Of a stretch of DNA of 64,000 nucleotides, positions 36,606 through 61,040 are shown one piece after another (the first letter of the stretch is position 1; the number at the start of each line of letters is the position of its first letter). The notes under the pieces are model-generated. The model ran no database searches and had not been told where the DNA came from. It saw only the letters and a program-made list of their open reading frames with translations. Source of the DNA: an uncultured Oscillospiraceae bacterium (GTDB lineage Bacteria; Bacillota; Clostridia; Oscillospirales; Oscillospiraceae); assembly GCA_934593275.1 (NCBI GenBank), contig CAKTQE010000003.1:1-64000 (forward strand), written 5' to 3'. A program made the position numbers and the translations under genes.

Positions 36606-36625
36606 TCAAGACTAGGAGGAAAACG

Positions 36626-38899: not shown

Positions 38900-38995
38900 G
38901 GGAGAAGGAGTGCATCTGCGGTGGCTGTGAATCACACTTTGAGCGGATGCAAAAGGGACAGTGACTTTGACTGCTGCCCGGAAGGAGAATGAGGT

Positions 38996-39709: not shown

Positions 39710-40476
39710 TCGATGGCCTTGTATCTATTATTATGCCTTCCTGGAATACAGGGCGGTTTATTGGAGAGTCCATCCAGTCTGTATTAAATCAGTCCTACCG
39801 GAATTGGGAACTCATCATCGTGGACGATTGCTCTACAGATCATACGGATGAAGTGGTTGCATCCTTTCAGGATGAGCGTATTCGATACTTCCATAATGAA
39901 CACAATTCCGGTGCTGCTTTAACTCGGAACTATGCCCTCCGGGAGGCTAGAGGCGAGTGGATCGCATTTCTGGATTCTGATGATTTGTGGGAACCGGAGA
40001 AATTGGAGCATCAGATCAAGTTCATGGTGGATAACGGATACAGCTTGTCCTATACCGAGTATGAGAAAATCGATGAGGCTTCCCAGCCTTTGAATATCTA
40101 TGTTTCCGGGCCTGAAACGGTCAACAAGCGGAAGATGTATCATTATGATTATATCGGCCAGCTGACCATGATGTACAGTGCCAAACATTTTGGCTTGGTC
40201 CAAATCAAGGACATCAAAAAGAACAATGACTATGCGATCCGACTCCAGCTATTCCGGCAGTCGGATACCTGCGCCTATCTTTTAAAGGAAAATTTGGCAA
40301 AGTATCGCATCCGAAAGGTCAGCATCAGCCACGATAAATTCAAAAGAAAGTTCAAAAGCCACTTTGATCTGTTCCATGTATGTGACGAAAAAACGGCCCC
40401 GGTAGCCCTATGGCTGGCATGCTGGAATATGTGGTTTGGATTGATGAAGAAGAAAAAGTACGAAAAGTGCTATTAG
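39706..40476 (+). CDS. Glycosyltransferase family 2
   Basis: 256 residues, GT-A fold. The N-terminus reads VSIIMPSWNTGRFIGESIQSVLNQ, with WELIIVDDCSTDHT for nucleotide binding and LDSDDLW as the DxD metal site. After about residue 150 the sequence diverges, ending in a basic, aromatic tail that may touch the membrane. It would add the second sugar to the lipid-linked primer. Donor and linkage cannot be told. It overlaps the initiating transferase (ATGA), so their products are probably made together. Confidence 0.9.
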   Translation: MIDGLVSIIMPSWNTGRFIGESIQSVLNQSYRNWELIIVDDCSTDHTDEVVASFQDERIRYFHNEHNSGAALTRNYALREARGEWIAFLDSDDLWEPEKLEHQIKFMVDNGYSLSYTEYEKIDEASQPLNIYVSGPETVNKRKMYHYDYIGQLTMMYSAKHFGLVQIKDIKKNNDYAIRLQLFRQSDTCAYLLKENLAKYRIRKVSISHDKFKRKFKSHFDLFHVCDEKTAPVALWLACWNMWFGLMKKKKYEKCY

Positions 40477-40484
40477 AGGTTTAC

Positions 40485-41516: not shown

Positions 41517-41539
41517 TAAAATAGTAAAGGATCATACAT

Positions 41540-42646
41540 ATGAAAAGACTGCTTTGCATTGTTTCCGCAATGAACACCGGGGGTGCGGAAACATTTTTGA
41601 TGAAAATGTATCGGTCGCTGGATCGTGAAAAATATCAGATGGATTTTTGTGTCAATAGTGACGAGAATTTCTATGAGCAAGAGATTCTTAAAATGGGCGG
41701 AAAAATTTATAAGATTTCTGCAAAGTCTCAAAACGTGCTCAAGTGGCATCAGGAACTAAAGCAGGTTGTGCATGAGAACGGGTATCAGTATGTGATTCGT
41801 GTCTGTGAGCATTCCTTAGCGGCGTTGGATTTGCTTGTGGCCCGTGAGGGCGGTGCGAAACAGTTGATCATGCGCTCCAGCAATACGGGATCTGGCGGTA
41901 AAATAACCACAGTGGTTCATAGATGCTTCCGCTTTCTTCCTCAGACCGTTCCAACGGTTAAACTGGCACCCTCTACCGAGGCTGCGGAATATACCTTTGG
42001 AAAAGGGTGTATCGGGCGGGGCGAGGCGTTTCTTTTGCACAACGCTATTGACACGAGCGTATATTGTTTTGACGAAAACGGTAGAGAGCGACTGCGCAAA
42101 GAGATGGGGCTGGAAGATAAGTTTGTAGTCGGCCATGTGGGCCGTTTCAACCAACAGAAAAACCATGCGTTTCTGATTGACGTTTTTCAGGAACTCCATA
42201 ATAGGAACCCCCAGGCCAGATTGGTTTTGGTAGGAAAGGGGGAGCTGGAACAAGCGGTGCGGCAGAAAGTTTGTGCTCTCGGGCTGGAAGAATACGTGAT
42301 TTTTACCGGAGTCCGCCAGGATATTCCGCAATTGTTGTCAGCTTTTGACGTGTTCCTTTTTCCATCTCTGTATGAGGGAATGCCCAATACAGTCATTGAG
42401 GCCCAGGCGACAGGGCTGCCTTGTGTAATATCGGATACTATTACGCAACAAGCAAGAATTACAGATCTTATCCGTTTTTGCTCACTTCAGTCCTCAGTAT
42501 TGACTTGGGCTGACGCTTGCTTAAAAGTAACAAGCGTTAATCGTGCAAAGTACAGTAATACATTGATAGAGGCTGGATATGACATTAGTGCTGTTGTGCC
42601 ACAATTTGTAAAATGGACATTTGGGTGCAATACTGAAAACAGTTGA
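41540..42646 (+). CDS. Glycosyltransferase family 4
   Basis: 368 residues, GT-B. It has the acceptor-side MNTGGAETFLMKMYRSL motif, then VGHVGRFNQQKNHAFLIDVF and FLFPSLYEGMPNTVIEAQATGLPCV, containing the EGxPxxxxE retaining-GT signature. Its last 70 codons are AT-rich and the C-terminus is short compared with related enzymes. After the stop comes a 242-base gap. It probably extends the repeat unit with a further sugar. Similar to the enzyme at 46472, to which it may be paralogous (same GGAET start and EGxPxT motif). Confidence 0.92.
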   Translation: MKRLLCIVSAMNTGGAETFLMKMYRSLDREKYQMDFCVNSDENFYEQEILKMGGKIYKISAKSQNVLKWHQELKQVVHENGYQYVIRVCEHSLAALDLLVAREGGAKQLIMRSSNTGSGGKITTVVHRCFRFLPQTVPTVKLAPSTEAAEYTFGKGCIGRGEAFLLHNAIDTSVYCFDENGRERLRKEMGLEDKFVVGHVGRFNQQKNHAFLIDVFQELHNRNPQARLVLVGKGELEQAVRQKVCALGLEEYVIFTGVRQDIPQLLSAFDVFLFPSLYEGMPNTVIEAQATGLPCVISDTITQQARITDLIRFCSLQSSVLTWADACLKVTSVNRAKYSNTLIEAGYDISAVVPQFVKWTFGCNTENS

Positions 42647-42678
42647 TAGAAGAAAGACAAAGGGAAGCTCCTTTGATA

Positions 42679-42783
42679 ATGTACATATACAACGGCCTTT
42701 TACTGCCTGTGTATGGCATGTTGTTCAGTATTTTCTTTTATTTCAATAATAGACTTTTCGGGCATGATGTCAAGATTGCATAG
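42679..42783 (+). pseudogene. Short hydrophobic ORF, possible polymerase remnant
   Basis: 34 codons from the ATG at 42679 to TAG 42783: a hydrophobic segment with LLLPVYGMLFSIFFYF followed by NNRLFGHD. A weak GGGAAG site lies 12 bases upstream. The rest of the gap (42784-42888) has stops in all frames. An N-terminal membrane helix alone, in a locus that lacks a Wzy, is what a degraded polymerase or flippase would leave. This is a guess; nothing else is recognisable in the gap. Confidence 0.3.
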
Positions 42784-42888
42784 AACGGCATAACTACTAT
42801 AAATAAATTAGTGCCGTATGCGGTGTGCCTCTAAGTATAATTCTAATCAACTTTTATAAAAGACATTATAGTGGGCAGGGAATCTGAA

Positions 42889-43824
42889 ATGAAAAAAATG
42901 TCAGCTGAAATAGCGAAAGGTTTGCGTTATATATCAGATAAGAATTACAGAACGATTATAAATGCGAATTTGGGATTATATAATCATTTGCCAGATGATA
43001 AGTATCTGAAAAAGATTTATCAGGCGCATTTTCATGAGAACCTGGATTTGAACGATCCCCAAACCTTTAACGAAAAACTCCAATGGCTGAAACTCTACAA
43101 CCGGAAGCCGGAATACACCATGATGGTGGACAAGTACAAAGTCCGGGAATACATTGCCCAGACTCTGGGGGAAGAATATTTGATTCCTCTGATTGGGGTA
43201 TGGGATGACCCGGATGAAATTGATTTTGATACTTTGCCGGATCAATTTGTCCTGAAATGCAATCACAATTCTGGTTTGGGTATGTGCATATGTAAAGACA
43301 AATCTAAGCTGGATATTTCAAAAGTCAAGGCTGAGCTTCGGAAAGGACTCAAACAGAATTACTACCTGACAGGGAGAGAGTGGCCCTATAAAGATGTGCC
43401 TAGAAAAATTATCTGCGAGAAGTATATGCAGGATGATTCCAAAACGGGCAATCTTGCAGATTATAAGGTGCTTTGTTTTAACGGAGAGCCTCGATTGGTA
43501 GAAATACATCGAGGACGATTTGAAGGAGTTCATACCCAGGATTTTTATAATGAGGATTGGGTAAAAACAGACATTGAGCAGCCGGAATTACCCTTGTCTG
43601 ATGAAATAATGCAAAGACCGCCATTTGCCGACGAAATGTTTCGTTTGAGCAGAATTTTGGCGAAAAATATTCCGCACGTACGTGTTGACTGGTATTACAC
43701 TGGTGGGAGACTGTACTTTGGAGAATTGACATTTTTTGACGGTTCTGGTTTTGGAGCGTTTGAAGACAACCAAGACATGGAACTCGGAAGTTGGATGAAA
43801 CTTCCTGAAAAAAACAACGATTAA
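42889..43824 (+). CDS. TupA-like ATP-grasp protein
   Basis: 311 residues. The pattern DPQTFNEKLQWLKLYNRKPEYTMMVDKYKVREY (cited as TFNEKLQWLK and DKYKVREY) is typical of the TupA-like ATP-grasp family found in teichuronopeptide and capsule loci. It is followed by FVLKCNHNSGLG and the metal/ATP segment HVRVDWYYTGGRLYFGELTFFDGSGF. TupA is thought to attach amino acids or peptides to an acidic polymer; others are annotated as glycosyltransferases. The start at 42889 has AGGGAATCTGAA. It precedes an amino-acid symporter gene by 20 bases, which fits an amino-acid-linked modification. Confidence 0.88.
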   Translation: MKKMSAEIAKGLRYISDKNYRTIINANLGLYNHLPDDKYLKKIYQAHFHENLDLNDPQTFNEKLQWLKLYNRKPEYTMMVDKYKVREYIAQTLGEEYLIPLIGVWDDPDEIDFDTLPDQFVLKCNHNSGLGMCICKDKSKLDISKVKAELRKGLKQNYYLTGREWPYKDVPRKIICEKYMQDDSKTGNLADYKVLCFNGEPRLVEIHRGRFEGVHTQDFYNEDWVKTDIEQPELPLSDEIMQRPPFADEMFRLSRILAKNIPHVRVDWYYTGGRLYFGELTFFDGSGFGAFEDNQDMELGSWMKLPEKNND

Positions 43825-46471: not shown

Positions 46472-47602
46472 ATGATAAAAGTAGTACACTTTATTCATGG
46501 CCTGAGCATGGGAGGGGCCGAAACATTAGTAAAAAACTACGCACTTTTCCTGGATAAGACAAAGTTTAATGTAACTGTTCTGTGCTATGAGCATTTTGAT
46601 TCTCCCTATGAGGATTTGTTACGTCAGAATAACATTGATGTTATTTATGTTTGTGATCAGATTCCGAAATATCGGAAACCAAATTTGATAACGAGAGTTC
46701 TCAATCATTATCGACTCGATTGGTCGATTCGTAAGGAATTAAATAAACAAAACCCGGACATTGTACATTTCCATTTGGGATTGAGTAGGTATATTCGATA
46801 TGCAAGATTAAAAAAGAATGTCCATTTGTTCTACACGCAACATTTTAGCACGGATACGTTAGAAAAAGAATGTCCAGAGTATATTACAAATATAAAGTGG
46901 CTTTTAAGGCATTACGATGTCCATCTGATTGCCCTTCACGAAGCAATGAAAAAGAGTATGGATAGAATATTCCAAATCAACAGCACAAAAGTACTGAACA
47001 ATGGTGTGGACATGGAGGCTTTTAGAAGTCCGCTGAATCTGGAAGAAAAACGAGCAGAACTGGGAATTCCATCAAACGCTTTTGTAGTCGTTCATGTAGG
47101 CCGATTTGACCCTGTCAAGAACCATGACTTCTTGGTGGAGGTTTTTGCAGAGCTAAAAAAGAAAAACGAAAACGCTTTTTTACTCATGGTCGGGAGAGGA
47201 GAAACAGAGCAACAGGTTTGCGATAAGCTGAAAAAGTTGGGGCTGGAAGATTCTTACAAAATTCTGCATGATCGCACGGATGTTGCAGAAATTCTGCGGG
47301 CATGTGATGCTGCAGCGTTTCCATCGATTTCAGAGGGAGTTCCACTTACTTTAATTGAAATGCAGGCTGCGGGGTTGCCCTGTGTGGTATCGTCTGGCGT
47401 TCCGAAAGATGTATGCATCTCAAACAGAATACGTTTTCTCGGTTTAAAGTTAAGTGCGGAGAAATGGGCTGTTGAACTGCTTGAAATGTCAAACGCAAAC
47501 ACACCAATTCAATATTACGGAATCGAAGAATGGGACATCCGACATAACGTCAAGCAGCTGGAAATGATGTATGAAGATGCAATGATGTGTGAAAGAGACT
47601 GA
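46472..47602 (+). CDS. Glycosyltransferase family 4
   Basis: 376 residues, GT-B. VVHFIHGLSMGGAETLVKNYAL at the start is the acceptor-loop pattern; VVVHVGRFDPVKNHDFLVEVFAEL and FPSISEGVPLTLIEMQAAGLPCVVSSG give the donor site with the E-x7-E pair. The gene is AT-rich with a different codon preference from the genes at 34-40 kb. A weak site (AGGGAGAACAG) precedes the ATG. The 121-base gap before it holds nothing recognisable. It likely adds a hexose or N-acetylhexosamine with retention of configuration. Confidence 0.92.
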   Translation: MIKVVHFIHGLSMGGAETLVKNYALFLDKTKFNVTVLCYEHFDSPYEDLLRQNNIDVIYVCDQIPKYRKPNLITRVLNHYRLDWSIRKELNKQNPDIVHFHLGLSRYIRYARLKKNVHLFYTQHFSTDTLEKECPEYITNIKWLLRHYDVHLIALHEAMKKSMDRIFQINSTKVLNNGVDMEAFRSPLNLEEKRAELGIPSNAFVVVHVGRFDPVKNHDFLVEVFAELKKKNENAFLLMVGRGETEQQVCDKLKKLGLEDSYKILHDRTDVAEILRACDAAAFPSISEGVPLTLIEMQAAGLPCVVSSGVPKDVCISNRIRFLGLKLSAEKWAVELLEMSNANTPIQYYGIEEWDIRHNVKQLEMMYEDAMMCERD

Positions 47603-47796
47603 TATGCAACAATAAGGAAAATGATGAGCTTCTCGCTGTGTATCAGCAAGGAGCAAGATGAGTTTTGTCTTATATAGGCTCAGTGCGCTAACCAGTATTG
47701 TATTTAGTAATATTACAACTGTATTATGGGCGAATTTGCGCATTTGTGAGGAAAATTCTGCTTGTAAAAGTGTTGTAAAGAAGAATAGGAGACCAT

Positions 47797-48750
47797 ATGG
47801 AACAAGTTCAGGTAAGCATCGTCTGCAATGCCTATAACCATGAACCCTATATCCGGGATGCTTTGGAAGGATTTGTGATGCAGAAAACCACATTCCCTTT
47901 TGAAGTATTGGTTCATGACGATGCTTCTACAGACAATACGGCGAATATTATCCGGGAATATGAAGCGAAATATCCGGAAATTATCAAGCCCATCTATGAG
48001 ACGGAGAACCAGTATTCCAAAAACGATGGCTCTCTGGGGAGAATTCAGTATGGGCGGGTCAGAGGAAAGTACATTGCTATGTGCGAGGGTGATGACTACT
48101 GGACGGACCCTATGAAGCTTCAAAAACAGTACGATGCGCTAGAAAGTCATCCGGAATTGGATATCTGTGCAACGGGCGCAAAAATTGAAAAGGATGGATC
48201 CATTGTTGGCAGCTTCACTACGGTAGAACATGATGCGATTTTTACACCGGAGGAAGTGATTTTGGGCGGCGGTGGATTTGTTGCTACTGCTTCTCTAATG
48301 TATCGGACAGACATTCGAAAGGATCCCCCAGCCTTTTTTAGAATGATGGCTCTGGACTATTTTATCCAGATTCTGGGGTCCCTCAGGGGAGGAATGCTGT
48401 ATCTTGCTGAGGAAAGTTGCGTTTATCGAACTATGACTCCAGGCTCGTGGTCCGAGCGCATCGTTAGCGATATAGAAAAACAAAACTCTTTTGCGAGAGA
48501 ACTGTGTGATGTGTTACGCTGCTTAGATGCAGATACATCCGGTAAATATCACAATGAGGTAGATTATACTATTCGGATGCATGAGTTTAACGTTGATTAT
48601 AGAAATCGTGCCTATAAATCCATGTGCGCCCCAGAATACAAGGAGTTTCTTCAGGAACTCTCGGTTTCCAGAAGAATGATGGTACGGGTTGGAAAATACT
48701 GCCCGCAAGCTGTGAATTTTGCGCTGGCTATTCGTAAGAGGTTTCAGTAA
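47797..48750 (+). CDS. Glycosyltransferase family 2
   Basis: 317 residues, GT-A. It has QVSIVCNAYNHEPYIRDALEGFVMQKTTFPFEVLVHDDASTDNT (abridged: IVCNAYNHEPYI and VLVHDDASTD), and CEGDDYWTDPMKLQ as the DxD metal motif. The middle and end match polysaccharide GT2 enzymes near WcaA-type proteins. The next gene starts directly after the stop codon. The 194-base gap before it has a weak frame (from 47658) that overlaps this gene and is not convincing. Donor specificity unknown. Confidence 0.92.
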   Translation: MEQVQVSIVCNAYNHEPYIRDALEGFVMQKTTFPFEVLVHDDASTDNTANIIREYEAKYPEIIKPIYETENQYSKNDGSLGRIQYGRVRGKYIAMCEGDDYWTDPMKLQKQYDALESHPELDICATGAKIEKDGSIVGSFTTVEHDAIFTPEEVILGGGGFVATASLMYRTDIRKDPPAFFRMMALDYFIQILGSLRGGMLYLAEESCVYRTMTPGSWSERIVSDIEKQNSFARELCDVLRCLDADTSGKYHNEVDYTIRMHEFNVDYRNRAYKSMCAPEYKEFLQELSVSRRMMVRVGKYCPQAVNFALAIRKRFQ

Positions 48751-50202
48751 ATGGCAAAAGACAATACACGGGTTCTATCCAATTTCCTCTGGCGATTCGC
48801 TGAACGCTGTGGGGCGCAGGGCGTGTCTTTTGTTGTCTCTGTGGTTCTGGCCCGGTTGTTGGTACCGGAGGTTTACGGTACCATTGCGCTGGTAACGGTG
48901 TTTACTGCCATTCTGAATGTCTTCGTGGACAGCGGTCTTGGAAGCGCGCTGGTTCAGAAAAAGGATGCGGATGATTTGGATTTTTCGTCTGTGTTCTATT
49001 TCAATGTGGCGGTGTGTTGTCTGCTGTATCTGGGGATGTTTTTTGCGGCTCCTTTTATAGCGGAATTCTACAATCGGCCAGAGCTGACCCCGGTGATTCG
49101 GGTTTTGAGTTTGACACTGGTGATTTCCGGTGTCAAAAATGTGCAGCAGGCCTATGTTAGCCGGACCATGCAGTTCAAGCGTTTTTTCTTTGCCACATTG
49201 GGTGGCACCGTTGGGGCAGCGGGGATCGGTATTGCCATGGCTTACTGCGGCTTTGGCGTGTGGGCGTTGGTTATTCAGCAGATTTTTAATGCCACGGTGG
49301 ATACCGTCATCCTGTGGATCACCGTCAGATGGCGGCCCAAGCGGATGTTCTCCTGGAAGCGGCTGAAAGGGCTGTTTTCCTATGGTTGGAAGCTGCTGGT
49401 TTCCGCTTTGCTGGATACTGTTTATGGAAACCTCCGGCAACTGATCATCGGCAAAATGTATAGTTCGGCAGATTTGGCTCAGTACAATCGGGGCAGACAG
49501 TTTCCGGACGTGATCATTACCAACATCAATTCCTCTATTGACAGTGTACTCCTGCCAACCATGGCGAGAGTCCAGGAGGATGCCGCCCAGGTAAAGGGAA
49601 TGACCCGCCGGGCCATGAAAACCAGCACCTATATTATGGCCCCTTTGATGATGGGCCTTGCGTTCTGCGCCCAACCGGTGGTTCGCCTTGTTCTGACAGA
49701 AAAATGGCTGCCATGTGTACCCTTTATGCAGATATTTTGCATTACCTATATGTTTTACCCTGTCCATACCGCCAACCTGAATGCAATCAAGGCCATGGGA
49801 CGCAGTGACCTGTTTTTGAAGCTGGAAATCGTAAAAAAAGTGGTAGGTCTGGTGCTGCTGCTTTCTACCATGTGGTTTGGCGTCATGGCCATGGCGTACA
49901 GCTTGTTGGTCAGTACATTGACTGGAATGATCATCAACAGCTGGCCCAACAAGCGATTGCTGCGTTACAGTTACTTCGAGCAAATGAAAGACATCCTCCC
50001 GGGCATTCTGCTGGCGGTATTGATGGGCTGCTGCGTTTACCCAATCCAGTGGCTGGGCTTGCCGGATATTGTATCACTCCTGCTCCAAGTCCCCCTGGGG
50101 GCCTTGATCTACATTGGAGCCTCAGCGGTGCTGCATCTGGAATCCTATGAGTACTTGATGGATATGATAGTTCCATTTATAAAGAGAATTAAGAAAAAAT
50201 AA
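48751..50202 (+). CDS. Oligosaccharide flippase (Wzx/WzxC family)
   Basis: 483 residues with about 13-14 hydrophobic segments. The N-terminus (FLWRFAERCGAQGVSFVVSVVLARLL, cited by FAERCGAQGVSF) and the later QQAYVSRTMQFKRFFFA, SYGWKLLVSALLDTVYGNLRQLIIGK and YNRGRQFPD motifs are typical of the WzxC/MviN-like branch. It should flip the lipid-linked repeat unit across the membrane. The ATG abuts the previous stop, with no ribosome site of its own, so translation is coupled. GC-rich codon usage returns here after the AT-rich glycosyltransferase genes. Confidence 0.93.
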   Translation: MAKDNTRVLSNFLWRFAERCGAQGVSFVVSVVLARLLVPEVYGTIALVTVFTAILNVFVDSGLGSALVQKKDADDLDFSSVFYFNVAVCCLLYLGMFFAAPFIAEFYNRPELTPVIRVLSLTLVISGVKNVQQAYVSRTMQFKRFFFATLGGTVGAAGIGIAMAYCGFGVWALVIQQIFNATVDTVILWITVRWRPKRMFSWKRLKGLFSYGWKLLVSALLDTVYGNLRQLIIGKMYSSADLAQYNRGRQFPDVIITNINSSIDSVLLPTMARVQEDAAQVKGMTRRAMKTSTYIMAPLMMGLAFCAQPVVRLVLTEKWLPCVPFMQIFCITYMFYPVHTANLNAIKAMGRSDLFLKLEIVKKVVGLVLLLSTMWFGVMAMAYSLLVSTLTGMIINSWPNKRLLRYSYFEQMKDILPGILLAVLMGCCVYPIQWLGLPDIVSLLLQVPLGALIYIGASAVLHLESYEYLMDMIVPFIKRIKKK

Positions 50203-50212
50203 GGTTATAGAT

Positions 50213-51415
50213 ATGAAAAAATTGATGATTTTAGGCGGTTCTAGATATGCGCTCCCTGTTATTGATGCAGCAAGAAAACTTGGGATTTATACGATTACTG
50301 CTGATTTTCTTCCGAACAATATTGCGCACAAGTATTCAGATGAATATGTAAATGTCAGTATTATTGACAAGGATAAGACGTTAGAAGAGGCAAAAAAACG
50401 GAGAATTGATGGAATTATGTCGTTTGCCTGTGATCCAGGTGTTGTTACCGCTGCATATGTTGCCGACAAAATGGGATTGCCCAATGTTGGCCCATATGAC
50501 TCTGTGTGCATTCTCCAGAATAAAGGAAAATTCAGACAGTTTTTGACAGACAACGGATTTAATGTTCCTGTTGCAAAGAGCTATACAAATGTAGATGCTG
50601 CACTGACGGATGTTGATATTTTTCATTGGCCTGTAATTGTAAAACCTACAGATTCAGCAGGAAGCAAGGGCGTTTCCAAGGTGGAGTCACCAGCGAATCT
50701 GAAAAGAAGCATTGAATACGCTCTTTCATTCTCACTTTCCAACGAATTCATCGTTGAGGATTTTATCGAACAAAAGGGATTTTCTTCTGATACCGACAGC
50801 TTTTCAATTGATGGGGAATTAAAATTTATTTCCTTTAATTGTCAGAGATTTGATTCCAATGCCGAAAACCCGTATACACCGGCCGCATATAGCTGGCCAT
50901 CCTCTCTGAGCAGTGAACATCAGCAGGAATTGAAAAATGAAATTCAGCGGCTTATTAAATTACTTGGAATGAAAACGGCAATTTACAATATTGAGACTCG
51001 TGAAAGCACAAATGGAAAAGCCTATATTATGGAACTGTCCCCCCGGGGCGGTGGCAACCGATTGGCTGAGTGCCTTCGTTATGCAACGGGTGTGGATATG
51101 ATTACCAATATGGTGAAATACTCTGTTGGTTTAGCTACTGATGAGATTATGCAAGAGAATTATAATGGGTGCTGGTGCGAAATCATTCTGCATAGTGACA
51201 AGCCGGGAACATTCAAAGAACTATGGATAGCAGATGAAATCAAAGAGAATGTTGCGGAGCATGATTTGTGGATACCCAAAGGGACTAAAGTAGGTGGTTT
51301 TAGTGCTGCCAACGAGGCTATTGGCACATTAATTTTGAAAATGGAATCGCAGGAAGATGTTGAACAGGTGCTTTCGAATCAGGAGAGGTACGTGAAGGTT
51401 TTGGTGAGCGAATGA
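50213..51415 (+). CDS. ATP-grasp ligase, carbamoyl-phosphate-synthase-like
   Basis: 400 residues. The N-terminal Rossmann part begins KKLMILGGSRYALPVIDAARKLG; the ATP-grasp core includes WPVIVKPTDSAGSKGVSKV (glycine-rich lid) and the Mg-binding YIMELSPRGGGNRLAE. Proteins of this type couple a carboxylate to an amine or thiol using ATP. The AT-rich start abuts the flippase gene by ten bases; the end overlaps the next gene by four. A second member follows at 52358 with only limited similarity. In this context an amide bond between a sugar acid or amino sugar and an amino acid is plausible. Confidence 0.88.
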   Translation: MKKLMILGGSRYALPVIDAARKLGIYTITADFLPNNIAHKYSDEYVNVSIIDKDKTLEEAKKRRIDGIMSFACDPGVVTAAYVADKMGLPNVGPYDSVCILQNKGKFRQFLTDNGFNVPVAKSYTNVDAALTDVDIFHWPVIVKPTDSAGSKGVSKVESPANLKRSIEYALSFSLSNEFIVEDFIEQKGFSSDTDSFSIDGELKFISFNCQRFDSNAENPYTPAAYSWPSSLSSEHQQELKNEIQRLIKLLGMKTAIYNIETRESTNGKAYIMELSPRGGGNRLAECLRYATGVDMITNMVKYSVGLATDEIMQENYNGCWCEIILHSDKPGTFKELWIADEIKENVAEHDLWIPKGTKVGGFSAANEAIGTLILKMESQEDVEQVLSNQERYVKVLVSE

Positions 51416-52404
51416 ACGAAATCGGCGGCTATATCGAGTTGGATACTTACACAGGCCCTATGCTTCACGATGATGGCATTAAACTGAATTGCGGCAGAAA
51501 TGCCCTTGCTTATCTGATTGAAGCGAAAAGCATCCAAAAGATCTGGATGCCCAGGTTTATGTGTGACTCCTGTAATCGGGTGCTGAAAGACCATAATGTT
51601 GAAGTGGCGTACTATTCCATTGGCATGGATTTGAGACCCAGAATTAAAAACTGGGATGGTTGGCTTTACGTGGTCAATTTCTACGGGCAGTTAACCAACG
51701 AATACCTGGCATCTCTGGGGGAAAATGTCATCGTGGACAATGCCCAGGCATATTTTCAGGAACCCATTCCGGGTATTGATACGCTGTATACATGCCGGAA
51801 GTTTTTCGGAGTGGCAGACGGTGCAATTCTCTATACTGACAAAACCATACCTGTTTCCCAACAGGACGAATCTTTTGAACGGATGCACTTTCTGCTGGGC
51901 CGGTATGAGCGAACCGCATCGGAATTCTATCAGGAATATGTGGACAACAACCACTACTTTGAGTCCGAACCGATTAAGAACATGTCCCGCCTGACAGAGA
52001 ATCTTCTGCACGGGATCGACTATGAATTTGTCCGTAAACGCAGAACAGAGAACTTTACATTTTTGCAAAAAAATTTTGGAAACATCAACAAACTGACACT
52101 GCAAATACCGGATGGGGCCTTTATGTATCCGCTATATGTTGACAACGGAGCGCAGATACGAAAAGAACTTCAAAAACAGAAAATCTATATTCCCACATTG
52201 TGGCCTGCGGTTTTTGGTATATGCGGGGAGACAGAACTGGAATATGACATGGCAAAGAATATTCTGCCATTGCCATGTGATCAACGGTATAGTATGGTAG
52301 CGATGTTTAATGTTATGAAAGCATTGCTAATTGAATTAACGAAAATAGGTGAATTTGATGCTAAAAGGAAAAAAACTTTTGATTTTGGGATGTACGGTGG
52401 ATGA
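51412..52404 (+). CDS. Divergent DegT-like PLP-dependent enzyme
   Basis: 330 residues. The order of blocks follows DegT aminotransferases: LNCGRNALAYLIEA (phosphate-binding turn), WMPRFMCDSC, VDNAQAYF near residue 108 (aspartate that pairs with the PLP ring nitrogen) and YTCRKFFGVADGAIL with Lys130 as the probable Schiff-base lysine. Several blocks differ strongly from sugar aminotransferases, so the substrate may not be a nucleotide sugar. Its start overlaps the ATP-grasp gene by four bases and its end overlaps the second ATP-grasp gene by 47 bases. Conserved placement between two ligases suggests one shared pathway. Confidence 0.75.
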   Translation: MNEIGGYIELDTYTGPMLHDDGIKLNCGRNALAYLIEAKSIQKIWMPRFMCDSCNRVLKDHNVEVAYYSIGMDLRPRIKNWDGWLYVVNFYGQLTNEYLASLGENVIVDNAQAYFQEPIPGIDTLYTCRKFFGVADGAILYTDKTIPVSQQDESFERMHFLLGRYERTASEFYQEYVDNNHYFESEPIKNMSRLTENLLHGIDYEFVRKRRTENFTFLQKNFGNINKLTLQIPDGAFMYPLYVDNGAQIRKELQKQKIYIPTLWPAVFGICGETELEYDMAKNILPLPCDQRYSMVAMFNVMKALLIELTKIGEFDAKRKKTFDFGMYGG

Positions 52405-53653
52405 GTTCCAAATAATTGATGCTGCAAAAGGGATGGGAGTGTACACGATTGTAACTGATAACCATATGGATTGGTCACAAGCTCCTGCAAAGTACCGGGC
52501 AGACGAAGCATGGGATATTAGTTGGTCAGATGTTACGACCTTGAAAGAGAAGGCTTTGCTCAGCGGTGTGGATGGTGTGATGGCTGGGTATAGTGAGCGA
52601 AGAATTGAGTGTGCTATCAAATTATGTAGGGAACTAAAAAAACCATTTTATGTTGATAATGAGGATATACTCTATAAAACATTCAACAAACGGCTTTTTA
52701 AGGATATTTGCCGCAGGTATTCTGTACCTGTTACAAAAGACTATTCTGTAAATAATGCAGGGAATGAAGTAGCTGGGCAAACCATTGAGTTCCCTGTGCT
52801 TGTCAAGCCATTAGATAATGGTGGTTCCAGAGGAATTCGAACCTGTTGGAATACTCAAGAACTGGAGCAGAATGTAAAATATGCACTAACTTTCTCACAG
52901 ATGGATACGGTCGTTGTTGAGGAGTTAATTCGTGATGCACGAGAAGTGGTGGTGTATTATACAATTTCTGATGGCGAAATTGCGCTTTCGGCAATGTGCG
53001 ATAAATTTGAGAGGAGAACTTCTGAGGGCTTCAATTCTTTACCTGATGTTTATATGTATCCGTCTTTGCATACGCAAGAGTACATTGAAAAACACAACAT
53101 AGACGTAATTGCAGCATTGAAAAGTATGGGTATGCGGGAGGGAAGTGCAAACCTGCAGGGATTTTACAAACCAGGACGTGGATTCATTTTCTTTGAAATG
53201 GACTTTAGACCGGGTGGAACGAATACTTTTCATTTCACAGACTACTTTTCAGGAGAAAACTATCTGAAGATGCTGATCAATTATTCGCTTACGGGTGAAC
53301 CAGGGAAAGAGAATATTAAATACGCAGATCCTTTATTTGCTGGAAAATACGGATGTATATATACACTTCTATCCAAAGATGGCATAATCAGCCAGATGGG
53401 GGGAGAAGAAAAAGTTCAAAACAACCCCAATGTACTCTATACGTGTTTTTACCATAGCATTGGGACCAAAATTGAGGTAAATGGATCTCAATTTCCTAAA
53501 ACATTTCGTGCGTATATTGTAGGTGACGATATAGAGACAATCAAAAAAACAATTTTGGAAATTCAAGAGACGGTTTACGTCAAAGATGAATTCGGGGATA
53601 ATATGCTATTTTCACCTTTTAACGTAAATAAGCTGGATATTTACCAGAAATAA
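52358..53653 (+). CDS. ATP-grasp ligase, carbamoyl-phosphate-synthase-like
   Basis: 431 residues. It starts KKLLILGCTVDEFQIIDAAKGMGVY, has the lid sequence FPVLVKPLDNGGSRGIRTC and a catalytic metal-binding segment FFEMDFRPGGTNTFH. This resembles ligases of the same clan as the 50213 gene but with a different acid-binding half. The start at 52358 has TAGGTG seven bases upstream and lies 47 bases inside the previous gene; a GTG at 52349 is possible. Two ATP-grasp ligases flanking a PLP enzyme imply two successive couplings or one coupling and one activation step. Confidence 0.87.
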   Translation: MLKGKKLLILGCTVDEFQIIDAAKGMGVYTIVTDNHMDWSQAPAKYRADEAWDISWSDVTTLKEKALLSGVDGVMAGYSERRIECAIKLCRELKKPFYVDNEDILYKTFNKRLFKDICRRYSVPVTKDYSVNNAGNEVAGQTIEFPVLVKPLDNGGSRGIRTCWNTQELEQNVKYALTFSQMDTVVVEELIRDAREVVVYYTISDGEIALSAMCDKFERRTSEGFNSLPDVYMYPSLHTQEYIEKHNIDVIAALKSMGMREGSANLQGFYKPGRGFIFFEMDFRPGGTNTFHFTDYFSGENYLKMLINYSLTGEPGKENIKYADPLFAGKYGCIYTLLSKDGIISQMGGEEKVQNNPNVLYTCFYHSIGTKIEVNGSQFPKTFRAYIVGDDIETIKKTILEIQETVYVKDEFGDNMLFSPFNVNKLDIYQK

Positions 53654-53686
53654 CCGGATAACATATGATATAATGAGGGCAATGCG

Positions 53687-54739
53687 ATGATAAACAAAAA
53701 AACAGTTTGTATTTGTGGTGGTGGACATCAAGGATTGTCAATGGCGGCGCATATGGCTCTGAATGGAGTACCTGTTACGATGTGGAACAGATCGGCAAAT
53801 CATATTCAAGAGATTATTGATACAGGAAAAATCTTTTGCCAGGGGGTTGTACACGGAATTGCCAAAATAGAGAGGGCTTCTACAGATATGGAGAATGTCA
53901 TCTCAGACTTTGTGATGGTGACAACACCTAGTAGTGCGCATAAGGATATTGCTCATCAACTTGCCCCGTTTGTTCATAAGAATATGGTTATTGTACTAAA
54001 TCCTGGAAGAACATTTGGAGCAATTGAATTCACAAGGACCTTGCTGGAATGTGGCGTTAAAGAACTCCCACACATCGCAGAAGCTCAAACGATTGTCTAC
54101 ACATGTAGAAGGGGCGAGAAAAACAATACTACAATCATTGCATTAAAACATGGTGTAAAAATTGCAGCAATCAGAGGTAGCGATATTCAATTCATTATGG
54201 ATCGAATGCCTAAATGTATAAGAGAGTTTTTTACTGTTAGCAATTCTATCTTGGAGACGTCACTCAGTAATGTTGGAATGGTTCTTCACTGTGCACCGGT
54301 AATGATGAATATTGGGTGGATAGAAACACCAAAGGTTGATTTCAAGTACTACTATGATGGGATTTCTCCAAGTGTGGGACGATTTCTTGAAAAAATTGAT
54401 AGGGAAAGGCTCTTAGTGGCACTGGAACTCGGCTGCTCGGTGGAGTCAGTTACAGAGTGGCTAAGGAGAACATATCAGTGTGATGGTAGTTCGATTTTTG
54501 ATTGCATTCGGAATAATGATAGTTACAGAGAGATTGATGCTCCACCAACTATTCAGTGCAGATACATTTTAGAGGATGTACCTAACGGCCTTGTTCCGAT
54601 AGAGGCTGTAGGCAGAGAGTTAGGCATAGATACTCCCAATATTACTACAATAATTAATTTGGCATCTTCTGTAATGGATTTAGATTTTAGAAAAAACGGA
54701 AGAGTCTTTCCTTTGAAATTGATTCAAGAATTTATTTAA
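53687..54739 (+). CDS. Octopine/nopaline dehydrogenase-family oxidoreductase
   Basis: 350 residues. The N-terminal NAD(P) fold starts CICGGGHQGLSMAAHMALNGVPV. The C-terminal all-helical domain contains NVGMVLHCAPVMMNIGWIE, the region that carries the catalytic His of opine dehydrogenases, and the later helix with YREIDAP. Known relatives reduce the imine formed between an amino acid and a 2-keto acid to give an opine-type secondary amine. The gene follows the second ATP-grasp gene by 33 bases and precedes the B12 mutase-like gene by 21. Other beta-hydroxyacid-type activities in the same superfamily remain possible. Confidence 0.85.
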   Translation: MINKKTVCICGGGHQGLSMAAHMALNGVPVTMWNRSANHIQEIIDTGKIFCQGVVHGIAKIERASTDMENVISDFVMVTTPSSAHKDIAHQLAPFVHKNMVIVLNPGRTFGAIEFTRTLLECGVKELPHIAEAQTIVYTCRRGEKNNTTIIALKHGVKIAAIRGSDIQFIMDRMPKCIREFFTVSNSILETSLSNVGMVLHCAPVMMNIGWIETPKVDFKYYYDGISPSVGRFLEKIDRERLLVALELGCSVESVTEWLRRTYQCDGSSIFDCIRNNDSYREIDAPPTIQCRYILEDVPNGLVPIEAVGRELGIDTPNITTIINLASSVMDLDFRKNGRVFPLKLIQEFI

Positions 54740-54760
54740 CTTAATTCAGAAGTGGGAAAA

Positions 54761-56668
54761 ATGAATATTGAAAAAAATGAGACATTCGGATTAATAAAGA
54801 CTATTTTGGATGCACATACAATGGGGGTCCATGCAGCAGCAGCACTACTGAGAGATTGCGGATACCAAGTATTGATAGCACCACCTGAAATAGAAGATGC
54901 TTTAGACAAAGTATCCGCAAGAAGCAGCCAAAGACTAATCAAAAATTGGCTATTAACGAACAATGTGAAACATATTGGTGTATCTTATCGTTTGGATCCT
55001 GATGATGCGGTAAACATCGTGGGTCGGCTGGTTGAAATGCTAAAAAGAGATCGCCTTTTTGAGGTACCCAATGCGGCTGTGAAAAGCGTATTTTTTGCGG
55101 GTCTAGCACCTGCGTGCAAGCAAATCGATAAAGATTACATGGGGCTAATTAAAACATTCTGCGGCGGTGAGTCTGCAGAAGAAACCCTGCGTAATATGGG
55201 AGTCCCGGAGAAAGACATTCCACACCATATCATTGAGGGCTGTAAATATGACAAAGAACTTCTGAAATTTGGGCAGGAGATCATTTGTGATGGTACATAT
55301 CCATCATTGAAGCCACTTACAAGAAAAAAATATCCTGCATTTGGAACTAAAAAAGATACGTTAGAGGCTCGGCTTGCACACAATTTTGAAGGCGGTTTTC
55401 AGCCTCTTATTCGTGCACATTCTGGTCCTTATTCTGCAGAGATGACCAGAGTCCAATGCTTGCATGAATACAATGATTGGTGTAAAAAATTAGCAGAGTC
55501 TGGATACCTTGACATTCTTTCAATTGGTTCTTCTCAGTTGTCTCAGTCAAATTTTGGAGAGGAATGGAAAGATAAACCTAATGGTGGTGGAGTGCCTGTT
55601 AATTCTGAAAAAGAGTTTCATGATATATGGAAAGCTGCTCAACCTATGCTTGTGCGAACATATTCAGGAACCAAAAATGTTTTGTACATGGCAGATATGT
55701 ATGAGCGAACCATTAATATATCGTGGCATGCTCTCTCTCTATGGTGGTTCAACGAACTGGACGGTCGGGGGCCAAACTCACTTTATCAGAACTTAAAAGA
55801 ACATATTGATACAATACGACACATAGCGCAAATAGGAAAACCGGTGGAAACCAATGTTCCGCACCATTTTGCGTTTAGAGGTTGTGACGATGTAACATAT
55901 ATTGTGTCTGCATTTTTGTCTGCAAAAATGGCAAAGATGTGCGGAGTGAGGACATTCATCCTTCAAAATATGTTAAACACACCACGAAGTACGTGGGGAA
56001 TTCAAGATTTAGCAAAATCTCGTGCAATGCTACATCTTGTGAAGTCATTGGAAAATGACAACTTTAGGGTTATATTGCAGACTCGTGCAGGACTGGACTA
56101 TTTCAAACCAGATATCGATGAAGCAAAAGTTCAGCTTGCAGCAGTAACAGCTATGATGGATGATATAGATCCGGAAAATATTTATAGTCCTGAAATCATT
56201 CATGTAGTAAGTTATAGCGAGGCACTATTTTTGGCTACACCTGAAATAATCGATGATAGTATCAAAATAACCAGAAAGGCACTGCAAGAATATCGAAAGA
56301 AAAAACAAGCTGGAGAAACGCCAAATGTTAATACACCGGATATTCAGAACAGAACAGTTCGATTGATGGATTCCGCAAAAAAAATCATCGCTGCCATGGA
56401 ACAAAGCATTCCCAATTTGTATTCTCCAGAGGGGTTGTATGTAGCTTTCATTGCAGGTTGGTTGCCTGTTCCAGAATTATGGTCCAACTCAAATGAATTT
56501 CTTCACGCCAAATGTTGGGAAACAAAGGTGCATAATGGAGGGATTGAACTTGTAGACCATGGCCTCTTGATGACAACAGAATCCAGAATCAGTCGGTGCC
56601 TCGATTTTATGAAGGATGCCGAAGATATGTTATGTCAAAAATATCTAGATAAACAAAAAGGAATTTGA
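54761..56668 (+). CDS. B12-dependent mutase-like protein (glutamate mutase S and E domains fused)
   Basis: 635 residues. The N-terminal 130 residues form a cobalamin-binding domain with D17-x-H19-x-x-G22 (LDAHTMGVHAA), the motif whose histidine replaces the lower ligand of cobalt, followed by HIGVSYRLDP. The rest (about 200-520) follows the barrel of glutamate mutase subunit E: RAHSGP, NGGGVPVNS, VRTYSGTKN, SWHALSLWWFNELDGRGP, KPVETNVPHHFAFRGCDD and LAKSRAM. It should therefore rearrange the carbon skeleton of an amino acid or related acid by a radical mechanism with adenosylcobalamin. The start at 54761 is chosen over a GTG at 54752. Distant homology only; substrate unknown. Confidence 0.7.
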   Translation: MNIEKNETFGLIKTILDAHTMGVHAAAALLRDCGYQVLIAPPEIEDALDKVSARSSQRLIKNWLLTNNVKHIGVSYRLDPDDAVNIVGRLVEMLKRDRLFEVPNAAVKSVFFAGLAPACKQIDKDYMGLIKTFCGGESAEETLRNMGVPEKDIPHHIIEGCKYDKELLKFGQEIICDGTYPSLKPLTRKKYPAFGTKKDTLEARLAHNFEGGFQPLIRAHSGPYSAEMTRVQCLHEYNDWCKKLAESGYLDILSIGSSQLSQSNFGEEWKDKPNGGGVPVNSEKEFHDIWKAAQPMLVRTYSGTKNVLYMADMYERTINISWHALSLWWFNELDGRGPNSLYQNLKEHIDTIRHIAQIGKPVETNVPHHFAFRGCDDVTYIVSAFLSAKMAKMCGVRTFILQNMLNTPRSTWGIQDLAKSRAMLHLVKSLENDNFRVILQTRAGLDYFKPDIDEAKVQLAAVTAMMDDIDPENIYSPEIIHVVSYSEALFLATPEIIDDSIKITRKALQEYRKKKQAGETPNVNTPDIQNRTVRLMDSAKKIIAAMEQSIPNLYSPEGLYVAFIAGWLPVPELWSNSNEFLHAKCWETKVHNGGIELVDHGLLMTTESRISRCLDFMKDAEDMLCQKYLDKQKGI

Positions 56669-56669: not shown

Positions 56670-57776
56670 ATGCAGAGAATCCTCGTCACCCGTTCCTCCA
56701 TGCCCACATTTGAGGAATACTGCGGTGAAATCAAAGAACTGTGGGATACCCACTGGCTGACGAATATGGGGGTCAAGCACCGGCAGCTACAGGAAGAACT
56801 GGAAACATACTTGGATGTTCCCCATGTGACGCTTTATACCAATGGCCATTTGGCTTTGGAAAATGCCATCGGGGCGATGAATCTTCCGGAGGGCGGCGAG
56901 GTGATCACCACCCCCTTTACCTTTGCGTCTACGACCCACGCCATTGTACGCAACGGACTGGTGCCGGTGTTTTGTGACGTAAATGACAGGGATTACACCA
57001 TGGATGTGTCCAAAATCGAAAGCCTCATTACAGACCGTACAGTGGCCATCGTCCCTGTGCATGTCTATGGCAATCTCTGCGACGTGGAGGCCATTGAGCG
57101 GATCGCCGGAAAGTATGGCCTGAAAGTGGTTTATGATGCGGCTCATGCTTTCGGGGTGCGATATAAGGGCGTTTCCTCCGCTTGCTTTGGGGATGCCTCT
57201 ATGTATAGCTTCCATGCCACCAAGGTGTTCAACACCATTGAGGGCGGTGCGGTATGCTTCCGCGATGACAGCATGGTGCAGATTCTAAATGACATGAAGA
57301 ATTTCGGCATCCACGGCCCGGAGTCTGTGGAGTATATCGGCGGAAATGCCAAAATGAATGAATTTCAGGCTGCTATGGGCATTTGCAATCTGCGGCATTT
57401 GGATGAAGAAATCACCAAACGAAAAAAGGTCGTAGAGCGTTACCGTCAACGCCTGGAAGGGGTAGAGGGGATTCATCTCACGGCGGCTCAGGAGCATGTT
57501 GAACCCAACTATGCCTATTTCCCCGTGGTATTTGACGGTTACAAGTATACCCGCAATGAGATTTTTGCAATGCTTCAAGAGCAGAACATTACCGCCCGGA
57601 AGTATTTTTTCCCCTTGACCAACAGCTTTGAGTGCTATCGGCACTATCCCACCGCCGGCGTGGAAAAAACCCCGGTTGCCCAGCACCTGGCTCTGCGTGT
57701 GCTGACACTGCCGCTGTACGCTGACCTGGCACCGGAAGATGTGGACCGAATCTGCGATATTATTTTGGGAGTGTAA
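56670..57776 (+). CDS. DegT/DnrJ/EryC1 sugar aminotransferase
   Basis: 368 residues. PLP binding is marked by GHLALENAIGA near residue 59, DAAHAFG (156-162) and SFHATKVFNTIEGG with Lys185. This is a close match to nucleotide-sugar aminotransferases such as VioA, FdtB and DesV. With rfbA and rfbB downstream, the likely substrate is dTDP-4-keto-6-deoxyglucose (or its 3-keto isomer), giving dTDP-viosamine or a 3-amino sugar. It starts two bases after the B12 mutase-like stop and returns abruptly to GC-rich codon usage, so it belongs to a different module. Confidence 0.92.
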   Translation: MQRILVTRSSMPTFEEYCGEIKELWDTHWLTNMGVKHRQLQEELETYLDVPHVTLYTNGHLALENAIGAMNLPEGGEVITTPFTFASTTHAIVRNGLVPVFCDVNDRDYTMDVSKIESLITDRTVAIVPVHVYGNLCDVEAIERIAGKYGLKVVYDAAHAFGVRYKGVSSACFGDASMYSFHATKVFNTIEGGAVCFRDDSMVQILNDMKNFGIHGPESVEYIGGNAKMNEFQAAMGICNLRHLDEEITKRKKVVERYRQRLEGVEGIHLTAAQEHVEPNYAYFPVVFDGYKYTRNEIFAMLQEQNITARKYFFPLTNSFECYRHYPTAGVEKTPVAQHLALRVLTLPLYADLAPEDVDRICDIILGV

Positions 57777-58891: not shown

Positions 58892-59776
58892 ATGAAGGGA
58901 ATCATCCTTGCCGGAGGTGCCGGTACTAGACTATATCCGCTGACCATGGTGACCAGCAAACAGTTGCTGCCGGTCTACGACAAGCCCATGATCTACTATC
59001 CCCTTTCTACCTTGATGCTGGCACGGATCCGGGACATTCTGCTGATTTCCACCCCTGAGGATACCCCGCGGTTTCAGGCACTGCTGGGGGACGGAAGCCA
59101 ATTCGGCATTCACCTGAGCTATGCGGTACAGCCCAGCCCGGATGGGTTGGCCCAAGCGTTTCTGATTGGTGAAGAATTCATCGGAGACGATGCCTGTGCC
59201 ATGATTCTGGGGGACAATATCTTTTACGGCAACGGCCTGGGCAGCAAGCTCATGTCTGCCAGAACACATGCGGAAGCGGGCTGTGCCTCTGTTTTCAGCT
59301 ATTACGTGGATGACCCGGAGCGTTTTGGAGTCGTGGAGTTTGACAAGGATGGAAAGGTTCTGAGCCTGGAAGAAAAACCTCAGAATCCCAAAAGCAACTA
59401 TGCGGCTACGGGCCTATATTTTTATCCCAGCGGAGTCAGTAAAATGGCTGCCCAGGTGCGGCCCAGCAGCCGGGGAGAGTTGGAAATCACAACACTGAAT
59501 GAAATGTTCCTGCACCAAGGAAAACTGAATTGCGAATTACTAGGCCGCGGCTTTGCCTGGATGGACACCGGCACTATAGAAAGTCTGCTGAATGCAGGGG
59601 AATTTGTACATATGATCGAGCGAAACCAAGGCATGAAAATCTCCGCGCCTGAGGAGATCGGCTACCGCTTCAAATGGATCACCCGGGAGCAATTGCTGGA
59701 GAGTGCCATCCGTTACGGCAAGAGCAGCTACGGCAAGCACCTGAAATCCGTTGCCGAAGATAGAATTTTGCGCTGA
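58892..59776 (+). CDS. rfbA: Glucose-1-phosphate thymidylyltransferase
   Basis: 294 residues, the usual RmlA length. The nucleotide-binding [11 protein letters not shown] (8-18), [17 protein letters not shown] (23-39), and LGDNIFYG motifs are all intact; EEKPQNPKS and the ATGLYFY block complete the active site. It makes dTDP-glucose from dTTP and glucose 1-phosphate. Ribosome site AAGGAGAAAGCT precedes the ATG. It lies 18 bases after the acyltransferase gene and 11 bases before rfbB. Confidence 0.97.
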
Positions 59777-59787: not shown

Positions 59788-60861
59788 GTGAAAACATATC
59801 TGATCACCGGCTGCGCCGGATTTATCGGCTCCAATTTCGTTTATTATATGCTGAACAAGTATCAGGATATTTTGCTTGTCAACCTGGACAAGCTGACCTA
59901 TGCCGGGAACCTGGAAAACCTGAAAGGCGTGGAGGGGGATCCTCGCCACATTTTCGTCCAGGGTGACATCTGCGACAGGAAATTGGTGGCATCTTTGTTT
60001 GATAAATATGACTTCGACTACGTCATCAACTTTGCGGCGGAAAGTCATGTAGACCGGTCCATTGCTAACCCGGAGGTTTTTGTCCAGACCAATGTTATGG
60101 GAACCGTGAACCTCTTGCAGCGGGCAAAGGAAGCCTGGTACGATGCCGAGGCCAAGACCTGGAAAGCGGGGAAAAAGTATCTTCAGGTTTCTACGGACGA
60201 GGTATACGGTGCCTTGGGTGCGGAGGGATTCTTTATGGAAACCACGCCCCTCAGCCCCCACAGCCCCTATTCCTCCTCCAAGGCCAGTGCGGATATGTTC
60301 GTTATGGCGTTCCATGATACCTACGGTATGCCCATTAATATTACCCGCTGCTCCAATAACTACGGTCCCTACCAGTTCCCGGAGAAGCTGATCCCCCTGA
60401 TGATCAACAATGTGAAGCACCACAAGCAGCTCCCCGTCTACGGCGACGGTATGCAGGTTCGGGACTGGCTGTATGTAGAAGACCACTGTAAGGCCATTGA
60501 TATGGTGGCCAACGGCGGCACAATCGGAGAGGTTTACAATGTGGGCGGCCACAATGAGCGGCCAAACATCTTTATCGTGAAAACCATTATTCGACAACTC
60601 CACCACAGACTTCATGACGAGGGTATTTCCGAAGACCTCATCAAGCACGTAGAAGACCGCCTGGGCCACGACCGCCGCTACGGCATCGACCCTACCAAAA
60701 TCAAAAACGACCTGGGCTGGTATCCTGAGACCTCCTTTGAAAAGGGCATTGTTCTGACCATCGATTGGTATCTGGAACACCAGGAATGGATGAACAATGT
60801 CACCTCCGGTGCCTATCAGAAGTATTACGAGGATATGTACGCCGCCAAGGCTGAGATGTAA
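59788..60861 (+). CDS. rfbB: dTDP-glucose 4,6-dehydratase
   Basis: 357 residues, extended short-chain dehydrogenase. TGCAGFIGSNFV (8-19) binds NAD, VSTDEVYGALG carries the catalytic Thr-Asp-Glu, and YSSSKASAD contains Tyr and Lys of the YxxxK motif. It converts dTDP-glucose to dTDP-4-keto-6-deoxyglucose. The start is GTG with AGAGGTAAAATT before it. It is the last gene of the glycan locus. rfbC and rfbD are not present in the window, so the product is more likely fed to the aminotransferase at 56670 than made into rhamnose, unless those genes lie elsewhere. Confidence 0.97.
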   Translation: MKTYLITGCAGFIGSNFVYYMLNKYQDILLVNLDKLTYAGNLENLKGVEGDPRHIFVQGDICDRKLVASLFDKYDFDYVINFAAESHVDRSIANPEVFVQTNVMGTVNLLQRAKEAWYDAEAKTWKAGKKYLQVSTDEVYGALGAEGFFMETTPLSPHSPYSSSKASADMFVMAFHDTYGMPINITRCSNNYGPYQFPEKLIPLMINNVKHHKQLPVYGDGMQVRDWLYVEDHCKAIDMVANGGTIGEVYNVGGHNERPNIFIVKTIIRQLHHRLHDEGISEDLIKHVEDRLGHDRRYGIDPTKIKNDLGWYPETSFEKGIVLTIDWYLEHQEWMNNVTSGAYQKYYEDMYAAKAEM

Positions 60862-61006
60862 CGGCACAATGCCATCGGTATACCAAAAAAGAATGAAATG
60901 TGGACTTTACGGAGTGACACCTGGGCTAGGTGTATGTCCACACGGTTCTTTCCCTGCTGCTCGCCGGTTGGGGACATTTCTGAGCATCCTATTCTACGCA
61001 TCCCCC

Positions 61007-61040
61007 GCAGGGACGGCACCACCGCCGTCCCTGCGCATTT
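61007..61040 (+). terminator. Terminator of the glycan locus
   Basis: GCAGGGACGGC (61007-61017) and GCCGTCCCTGC (61024-61034) form an 11-base-pair stem followed by GCATTTCTTA. It ends just before the convergent spoIVB stop, so it may act for both. Confidence 0.7.

Follow-up and report, generated by a model that had tools for sequence, protein, structure and literature searches.

The region examined lies in a 64,000-nucleotide stretch of an uncultured Oscillospiraceae bacterium (GenBank assembly GCA_934593275.1, contig CAKTQE010000003.1, positions 1 to 64,000; the window), in an AT-rich part of which five tightly packed open reading frames (ORFs) are found on one strand. An earlier note, made from the sequence alone, had assigned them to two ATP-grasp ligases, a pyridoxal-phosphate (PLP) enzyme, an opine dehydrogenase (OpDH) and a B12-dependent mutase-like protein, and these assignments were supported by family and fold matches. 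The five genes of the block are:

50213..51415, + strand, ATP-grasp ligase 1, L-amino-acid-ligase-like (ATP-grasp_4, 2.2e-14)
51412..52404, + strand, divergent DegT-fold PLP protein (AF2 model and invariant residues)
52349..53653, + strand, ATP-grasp ligase 2 (Dala_Dala_lig_C, 7e-9; CPSase_L_D2, 1e-7)
53687..54739, + strand, opine dehydrogenase, CENDH-like (Octopine_DH, 5e-48)
54752..56668, + strand, single-chain glutamate-mutase-fold protein with an N-terminal cobalamin-binding-like domain (AF2, Foldseek)

By sequence alone, the product of the last gene gave no phmmer or profile match in PDB and belonged to no Pfam or NCBIfam family. Its AF2 model was found to have a mutase-type TIM-barrel catalytic domain in the predicted structure, and the best fold match (Foldseek/VIA) was the E chain of glutamate mutase. 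An earlier profile comparison with one MutE sequence was insignificant (probability 1.1%), and a single hhalign comparison of 12 MutE sequences with 37 of the mutases gave a colinear full-length alignment to the E subunit (P 2e-4 local, 1.6e-5 global), in which E490 and E330 are aligned. As the probability of this match is still 48-56%, it is the fold match that carries the relationship to glutamate mutase. At the N-terminus, the residues D20-x-H22-T-x-G25, corresponding to the DxHxxG motif of cobalamin-binding domains in class I (base-off/His-on) mutases, are invariant in 37/37 mutase sequences, and the N-terminus of a profile covering two size classes (A2) matched both MetH-sized ORFs (4e-7) and a B12-binding protein (8e-6) that was confirmed by Pfam (3e-26). 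The gene directly 3' of the mutase in loci L004 and L007 encodes a BtuR/CobO adenosyltransferase. We infer that the mutase uses cobalamin. It probably represents a family of its own among the adenosylcobalamin carbon-skeleton mutases, its single chain placing the B12 domain before a glutamate-mutase-type barrel. The family includes 2860 homologues at E <= 0.001 among 8000 candidates scored, and falls into class 1 (~610-650 amino acids, including that of the window) and class 2 (~530-570 amino acids). No relative was found in plasmid and phage collections at E 1e-5.

A set of 41 mutase loci was drawn from GTDB genomes (19), a sample of the class (18; match in 22 of 391 genomes) and a Bacteroidales sample of 295 genomes (4). 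Duplicates (L021, L061, L062 and the short versions L022-L032, L034-L036, L039-L042 and L063-L066) were excluded, the class-2 short-contig loci G197, G210 and G267 and the fragment L067 stand outside this count, and L068-L074, which are weak N-terminal matches, were not counted as mutases. An OpDH gene was located within two genes of the mutase on the same strand in 39 of the 41 loci, and both loci in which it was missed (L008 and L044) are cut by a contig end. It was also found beside the mutase in G197, G210, G267 and L067, bringing the total to 43/45, and is present for every mutase whose flanks are on the contig. The distances between mutases correlate with those between OpDHs (r 0.68 for 38 pairs, a value reached in 0 of 1000 permutations; r 0.90 for the 23 class-1 pairs, window included). 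Judged from these sequences, the OpDH and the B12 protein appear to be a single two-enzyme unit. In one Bacteroidales sample genome, a class-2 mutase and its OpDH adjoin two sulfotransferase genes (L124:6978-11815), the four being flanked by very large ORFs of 1494 and 1862 amino acids.

The OpDH itself scored 163 bits against a cut-off of 30 for the Octopine_DH domain (PF02317) and gave a full-length phmmer match (1.2e-65) to N-(1-D-carboxylethyl)-L-norvaline dehydrogenase (CENDH; PDB 1bg6). Residues H201, R292, E296 and D297, which we take to be catalytic, are kept in the window protein and at least 97% conserved in 38 sequences including it. Its constant mutase neighbour distinguishes it from the other PF02317 copies read. 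When the family was located across the class, 25 places were found in 19 of 118 genomes, seven of which are mutase pairs; no mutase lies near 13 of the 18 others (13 read, in 12 stretches; five unread). As these 13 other copies occur without a mutase, the presence of an OpDH does not imply one.

Some of the mutase-less OpDH genes have distinctive neighbours. Those at L113:5815-9219 and L115:2575-4731 adjoin 'sugar-transfer associated' ATP-grasp genes (ATPgrasp_ST), with one ATP-grasp gene lying between two OpDHs in L113, and are possibly simpler opine-ligase modules. At L111:4789-8863, an OpDH has a DctM gene (TRAP transporter) on one side and a gene of the ornithine-cyclodeaminase family on the other, a possible arrangement for opine uptake and use, and in L121 DctM alone accompanies the OpDH. 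At L122:4098-6941, the OpDH lines up with a gene resembling ketopantoate hydroxymethyltransferase and, two genes away, with one for a small corrinoid protein (B12-binding, B12-binding_2), a B12 protein of a different kind from the mutase.

In both ligases an ATP-grasp-clan domain exceeds its gathering score (ATP-grasp_4, 54 bits, cut-off 27; Dala_Dala_lig_C, 36 bits, cut-off 24). ATP-grasp 1 matched 4dim, a PurD-like entry (2e-27), and the L-amino acid ligase BL00235 (3vot, 1e-14) by phmmer; its matches to the LAL_C2 domain (3e-4) and to the PylC model (7e-8, 32 bits, cut-off 248) are under and far under the respective cut-offs. Counterparts with 56-57% identity are encoded in L012 and L015. 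ATP-grasp 2 also matched 4dim (1e-13), and its counterpart in L001 is 63% identical. Pfam scans (DegT included) and NCBIfam scans gave no match for the 51412..52404 product. Its AF2 model resembles sugar aminotransferases (best Foldseek match 7mfp, 1e-10), and K130 and D109 are invariant in 15/15 alignment rows. The modelled protein thus has the fold-type I sugar-aminotransferase fold, with K130 as the presumed PLP lysine, and is a putative sugar or amino-acid aminotransferase.

Glycan genes were recognised by iterated profiles within the stretch read at 16 of the 41 loci (only one such gene in L002), and in all 16 of these relatives OpDH, mutase and an ATP-grasp gene are found together. The profiles were begun from the window (including the PLP family of the block and the DegT gene) and from Pfam-named genes, and the glycan and ATP-grasp labels are lower bounds, chiefly on short contigs. 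A same-strand ATP-grasp gene is no more than six genes away in 16/16 glycan loci versus 4/25 others (Fisher 5e-8, not corrected for kinship); a second test leaving out the short or cut loci L004, L007, L008, L010 and L044, which were also unlabelled in the tree count, gave 16/16 versus 3/20 (Fisher 1e-7). The glycan loci with the pair span Bacillota and Bacteroidota and both mutase classes, and a DegT aminotransferase gene is within five genes in 10 of the 16. On the tree, the glycan label must have changed at least four times, indicating that recruitment to glycan loci, or loss from them, was repeated.

The earlier note had proposed a search for the block in other glycan loci. Two Paludibacteraceae loci, L012 and L015, were found to have all five genes in unchanged order; upstream of them are Wzx and DegT genes, and downstream a glycosyltransferase gene. 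In L001, which lies at a contig end, four of the five are visible, as the contig starts within the PLP gene and continues with ATP-grasp 2, OpDH, mutase, DegT, RmlA and RmlB.

In the window, the block is surrounded by the following features:

34512..43824, + strand, Polysacc_synt_2 dehydratase, DegT fusion, sugar-phosphate transferase, three glycosyltransferases and a TupA-like ATP-grasp protein, in this order (Pfam)
46472..50202, + strand, group 1 and family 2 glycosyltransferases, then a Wzx-type flippase, abutting the 5' side of the block (Glycos_transf_1, 7e-29; Glycos_transf_2, 2e-16; Polysacc_synt_3, 7e-104)
56670..57776, + strand, DegT sugar 4-aminotransferase, DesI-like (DegT, 1e-95)
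58892..59776, + strand, RmlA, glucose-1-phosphate thymidylyltransferase (TIGR01207, 455 bits, cut-off 361)
59788..60861, + strand, RmlB, dTDP-glucose 4,6-dehydratase (TIGR01181, 469 bits, cut-off 365)
61006..61035, + strand, terminator-like hairpin of 12 pairs (10 GC), probably the locus end (pattern scan)

A sodium/alanine symporter gene and a PGA_cap gene lie between the TupA-like gene and the two further glycosyltransferase genes, and an acyltransferase gene lies between the aminotransferase gene and rmlA. From this gene content, the block appears to be part of a complete-looking Wzx-type surface-glycan locus. As the hairpin scan found 16 sites in the window versus 15.4 expected in shuffles, the single site at the locus end is weak evidence. 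The top NCBIfam model for 56670..57776 was DesI, and the top PDB match was 2po3 ('4-dehydrase'), with perosamine synthetases next. RmlC and RmlD were not recognised among the scanned plus-strand locus ORFs of at least 180 amino acids. As RmlA and RmlB exceed curated cut-offs, RmlC and RmlD were not recognised and the aminotransferase is nearest to DesI and perosamine synthetase, the nucleotide sugar would be a dTDP-4-amino-4,6-dideoxyhexose, and the 56670..57776 product is a probable contributor to making this donor. The TupA-like ATP-grasp, symporter and PGA_cap genes (42871-46350) suggest more amino-acid parts in the glycan, and the DegT fusion (36785-38899) encodes a 704-amino-acid protein that joins a CoA_binding_3-like part to a DegT aminotransferase.

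These findings make it fairly likely that the product of the mutase and OpDH is coupled by the ATP-grasp ligases to an amino sugar of the surface glycan. The OpDH would reductively couple an amino acid and an alpha-keto acid to give an N-(carboxyalkyl)amino acid, and the mutase would act either earlier, rearranging the amino acid, or later, rearranging the opine. A branched or rearranged N-(carboxyalkyl)amino acid is the most likely joint product of the two. Where glycan genes are present, the ATP-grasp ligases would activate a carboxylate of this opine and form an amide with a sugar amino group, the acceptor most likely being the 4-amino-4,6-dideoxyhexose made in its dTDP form by RmlA, RmlB and the adjacent DegT aminotransferase. 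The decorated glycan would then be assembled by the glycosyltransferases and exported via Wzx. The families and folds, the missing aminomutase PLP lysine (below), the constant pairing and the ATP-grasp association provide computed support; the step order, the substrate, the group rearranged, the acceptor sugar and the amide are what we infer. A broader reading is put forward more tentatively, in which a new mutase family with an obligate OpDH partner makes branched opines that serve as a solute in Clostridia, in some under c-di-AMP (cyclic di-AMP) control, and that also decorate 4-amino sugars in Clostridia and Bacteroidales by way of ATP-grasp ligases.

Several observations weigh against the glycan role. 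The pair is not specific to glycan loci, as in 25 of the 41 loci the stretch read shows the pair but no glycan gene (five of the 25 are on short or cut contigs). Nearly all of the 25 come from the Clostridia sample. Apart from L010, L049, L051 and L054, where an ATP-grasp gene accompanies it (Ddl-like in the last three), the pair stands alone in them. In three of them, a c-di-AMP riboswitch precedes the OpDH-mutase operon by ~100-280 bases:

L048:11282-11409, - strand, c-di-AMP riboswitch before a standalone operon
L053:6087-6251, + strand, c-di-AMP riboswitch before a standalone operon
L054:12064-12197, - strand, c-di-AMP riboswitch before a standalone operon

These represent 3/13 class-2 non-glycan loci (the upstream side is invisible in L057 and L060). 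As 29 c-di-AMP riboswitches over the cut-off were found in 16 class-2 genomes, the three of these at this operon far exceed the ~0.02 expected by chance, assuming 1500 transcription units per genome. They point to a compound with uses beyond glycans, and nothing else speaks as strongly against a role in glycans only. The product of the pair outside glycan loci is probably soluble and may be an osmolyte. At L050:6193-6254, a fluoride riboswitch was found where the pair begins. Other observations also count against parts of the proposal. The tree gives only four independent contrasts (same direction in 3.9 on average, sign test p 0.125), too few for the tree-based test to reach significance. The DesI score of 56670..57776 is under the equivalog cut-off (270 versus 650 bits). 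Class 2 mutases show CxHxxG, the D of DxHxxG being replaced by C, the Pfam B12-binding match of the single sequence is under the cut-off, and scans of the window and of 36 of the 41 loci (all but L010, L013, L014, L125 and L126) gave no cobalamin riboswitch at the gathering score.

The same evidence would suit a pair whose product is in all cases a soluble compatible solute or a cell-wall precursor, with mere co-location accounting for the glycan loci. Genes controlled by c-di-AMP riboswitches include some for the transport of K+ and amino acids, for the cell wall and for osmotic shock (PMC7266159), and a lysine 2,3-aminomutase for an osmolyte precursor is controlled by a tandem Na+/c-di-AMP riboswitch (PMC9337991). 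However, in glycan loci of both phyla and both mutase classes the neighbours of the pair include Wzx, ATP-grasp, DegT and glycosyltransferase genes, and no c-di-AMP riboswitch was found in the window, in the 12 scanned of the 16 glycan loci or upstream of the scanned class-1 standalone pairs (L046 has one ~6 kb off), making this explanation rather unlikely. A catabolic unit, in which an opine or glycated amino acid is taken up, oxidised by the OpDH and degraded with the help of the mutase, has a very low probability. In its favour, opine dehydrogenases are reversible, the L111 gene lies next to a transporter gene, and in L056-L058 the pair has an MFS transporter gene beside it or almost beside it (L056 by Pfam, its relatives by BLAST). 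However, L111 has no mutase, and of the genes found in three or more non-glycan loci only the Ddl-like ATP-grasp and MFS genes are close and on the same strand, two other recurrent genes being five genes off or on the opposite strand. The earlier note had held that joint occurrence far from glycan loci in a known catabolic pathway would refute its proposal; the OpDH-mutase pair does occur away from glycan loci, but no known catabolic pathway was recognised there. A biosynthetic role is favoured by the ligase and aminotransferase genes of the glycan loci.

An ordinary glutamate mutase, supplying 3-methylaspartate as the glycan substituent, would agree with the best fold match, and the window-type mutase shares with MutE/MutS the predicted barrel, a His-containing cobalamin-binding-like domain and the weak colinear profile match. 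It differs in being one chain with the B12 domain in front and in being always OpDH-adjacent in this set, and PF06368 (E subunit) is absent from the window protein and from the 12 families tallied over 37 homologues. Classical MutE was found in only 1/19 relatives' genomes, on a different contig from the pair. Glutamate mutase R100 and Y177 hold the acrylate part of the substrate (PMC10947579). In the sequence alignment, arginine-claw residue R100 is paired with the invariant Q265, and R66 and R149 fall close to H223/R221 and Y304/R302, with a register uncertainty of 1-2 residues. Ordinary glutamate mutase activity is improbable. As the arginine holding the distal carboxylate aligns with an invariant glutamine, our guess, within the broader reading given above, is that the mutase may handle a carboxamide, converting glutamine to 3-methylasparagine. 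An aminomutase of the lysine 5,6 or ornithine 4,5 type, using both PLP and B12, is a still weaker candidate. All three KamE sequences compared have a lysine 11 residues after the motif histidine (H+11), which we take to bind PLP, whereas profile A1 has L, I or V at that position in 37/37 rows. In A2, which overlaps with A1, the motif is visible in 18 of 19 rows, and these have L, A or V there.

We know of no B12 mutase for the alanopine derivative of Providencia alcalifaciens O35. The pyrrolysine pathway (PylB/PylC/PylD) resembles the proposed route in combining a mutase with an ATP-grasp ligase and a dehydrogenase acting on an amino acid, but PylB is a radical-SAM enzyme, and the families and the product are different. 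For the chemical end point, an opine on an amino sugar, a precedent is the alanopine derivative of 4-amino-4,6-dideoxyglucose in the P. alcalifaciens O35 O-antigen, going by the title of a paper cited in PMC10609480. The riboswitch-controlled lysine 2,3-aminomutase (PMC9337991) resembles L048, L053 and L054 in joining a mutase, an amino-acid-derived compound and c-di-AMP control, but is a different enzyme and not in glycan loci. In the open-licence PMC literature, nothing was found joining octopine dehydrogenase with a cobalamin-binding mutase, linking glutamate mutase, cobalamin and capsular polysaccharide, or combining opine dehydrogenase, ATP-grasp and polysaccharide; opine dehydrogenase with O-antigen appeared only in a siderophore-cluster context. 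Broader keyword combinations gave no B12 mutase in a glycan pathway among the matches listed (titles and abstract starts), in agreement with the earlier note, which knew of none.

It is thus probable that a so far undescribed enzyme pair carried by gut bacteria makes, in glycan clusters, an unusual amino-acid decoration for a surface sugar. To our knowledge, cobalamin-dependent radical rearrangement has not previously been linked to surface-glycan decoration, and, if the proposal is correct, this would be the first such link, in gut bacteria. On the broader, more tentative reading, branched opines would represent a new metabolite class and the coat decoration would depend on vitamin B12. A large unnamed mutase family would be added, the product of the pair would be accessible to ordinary biochemistry, and B12 supply could alter the commensal surface as seen by the gut immune system.

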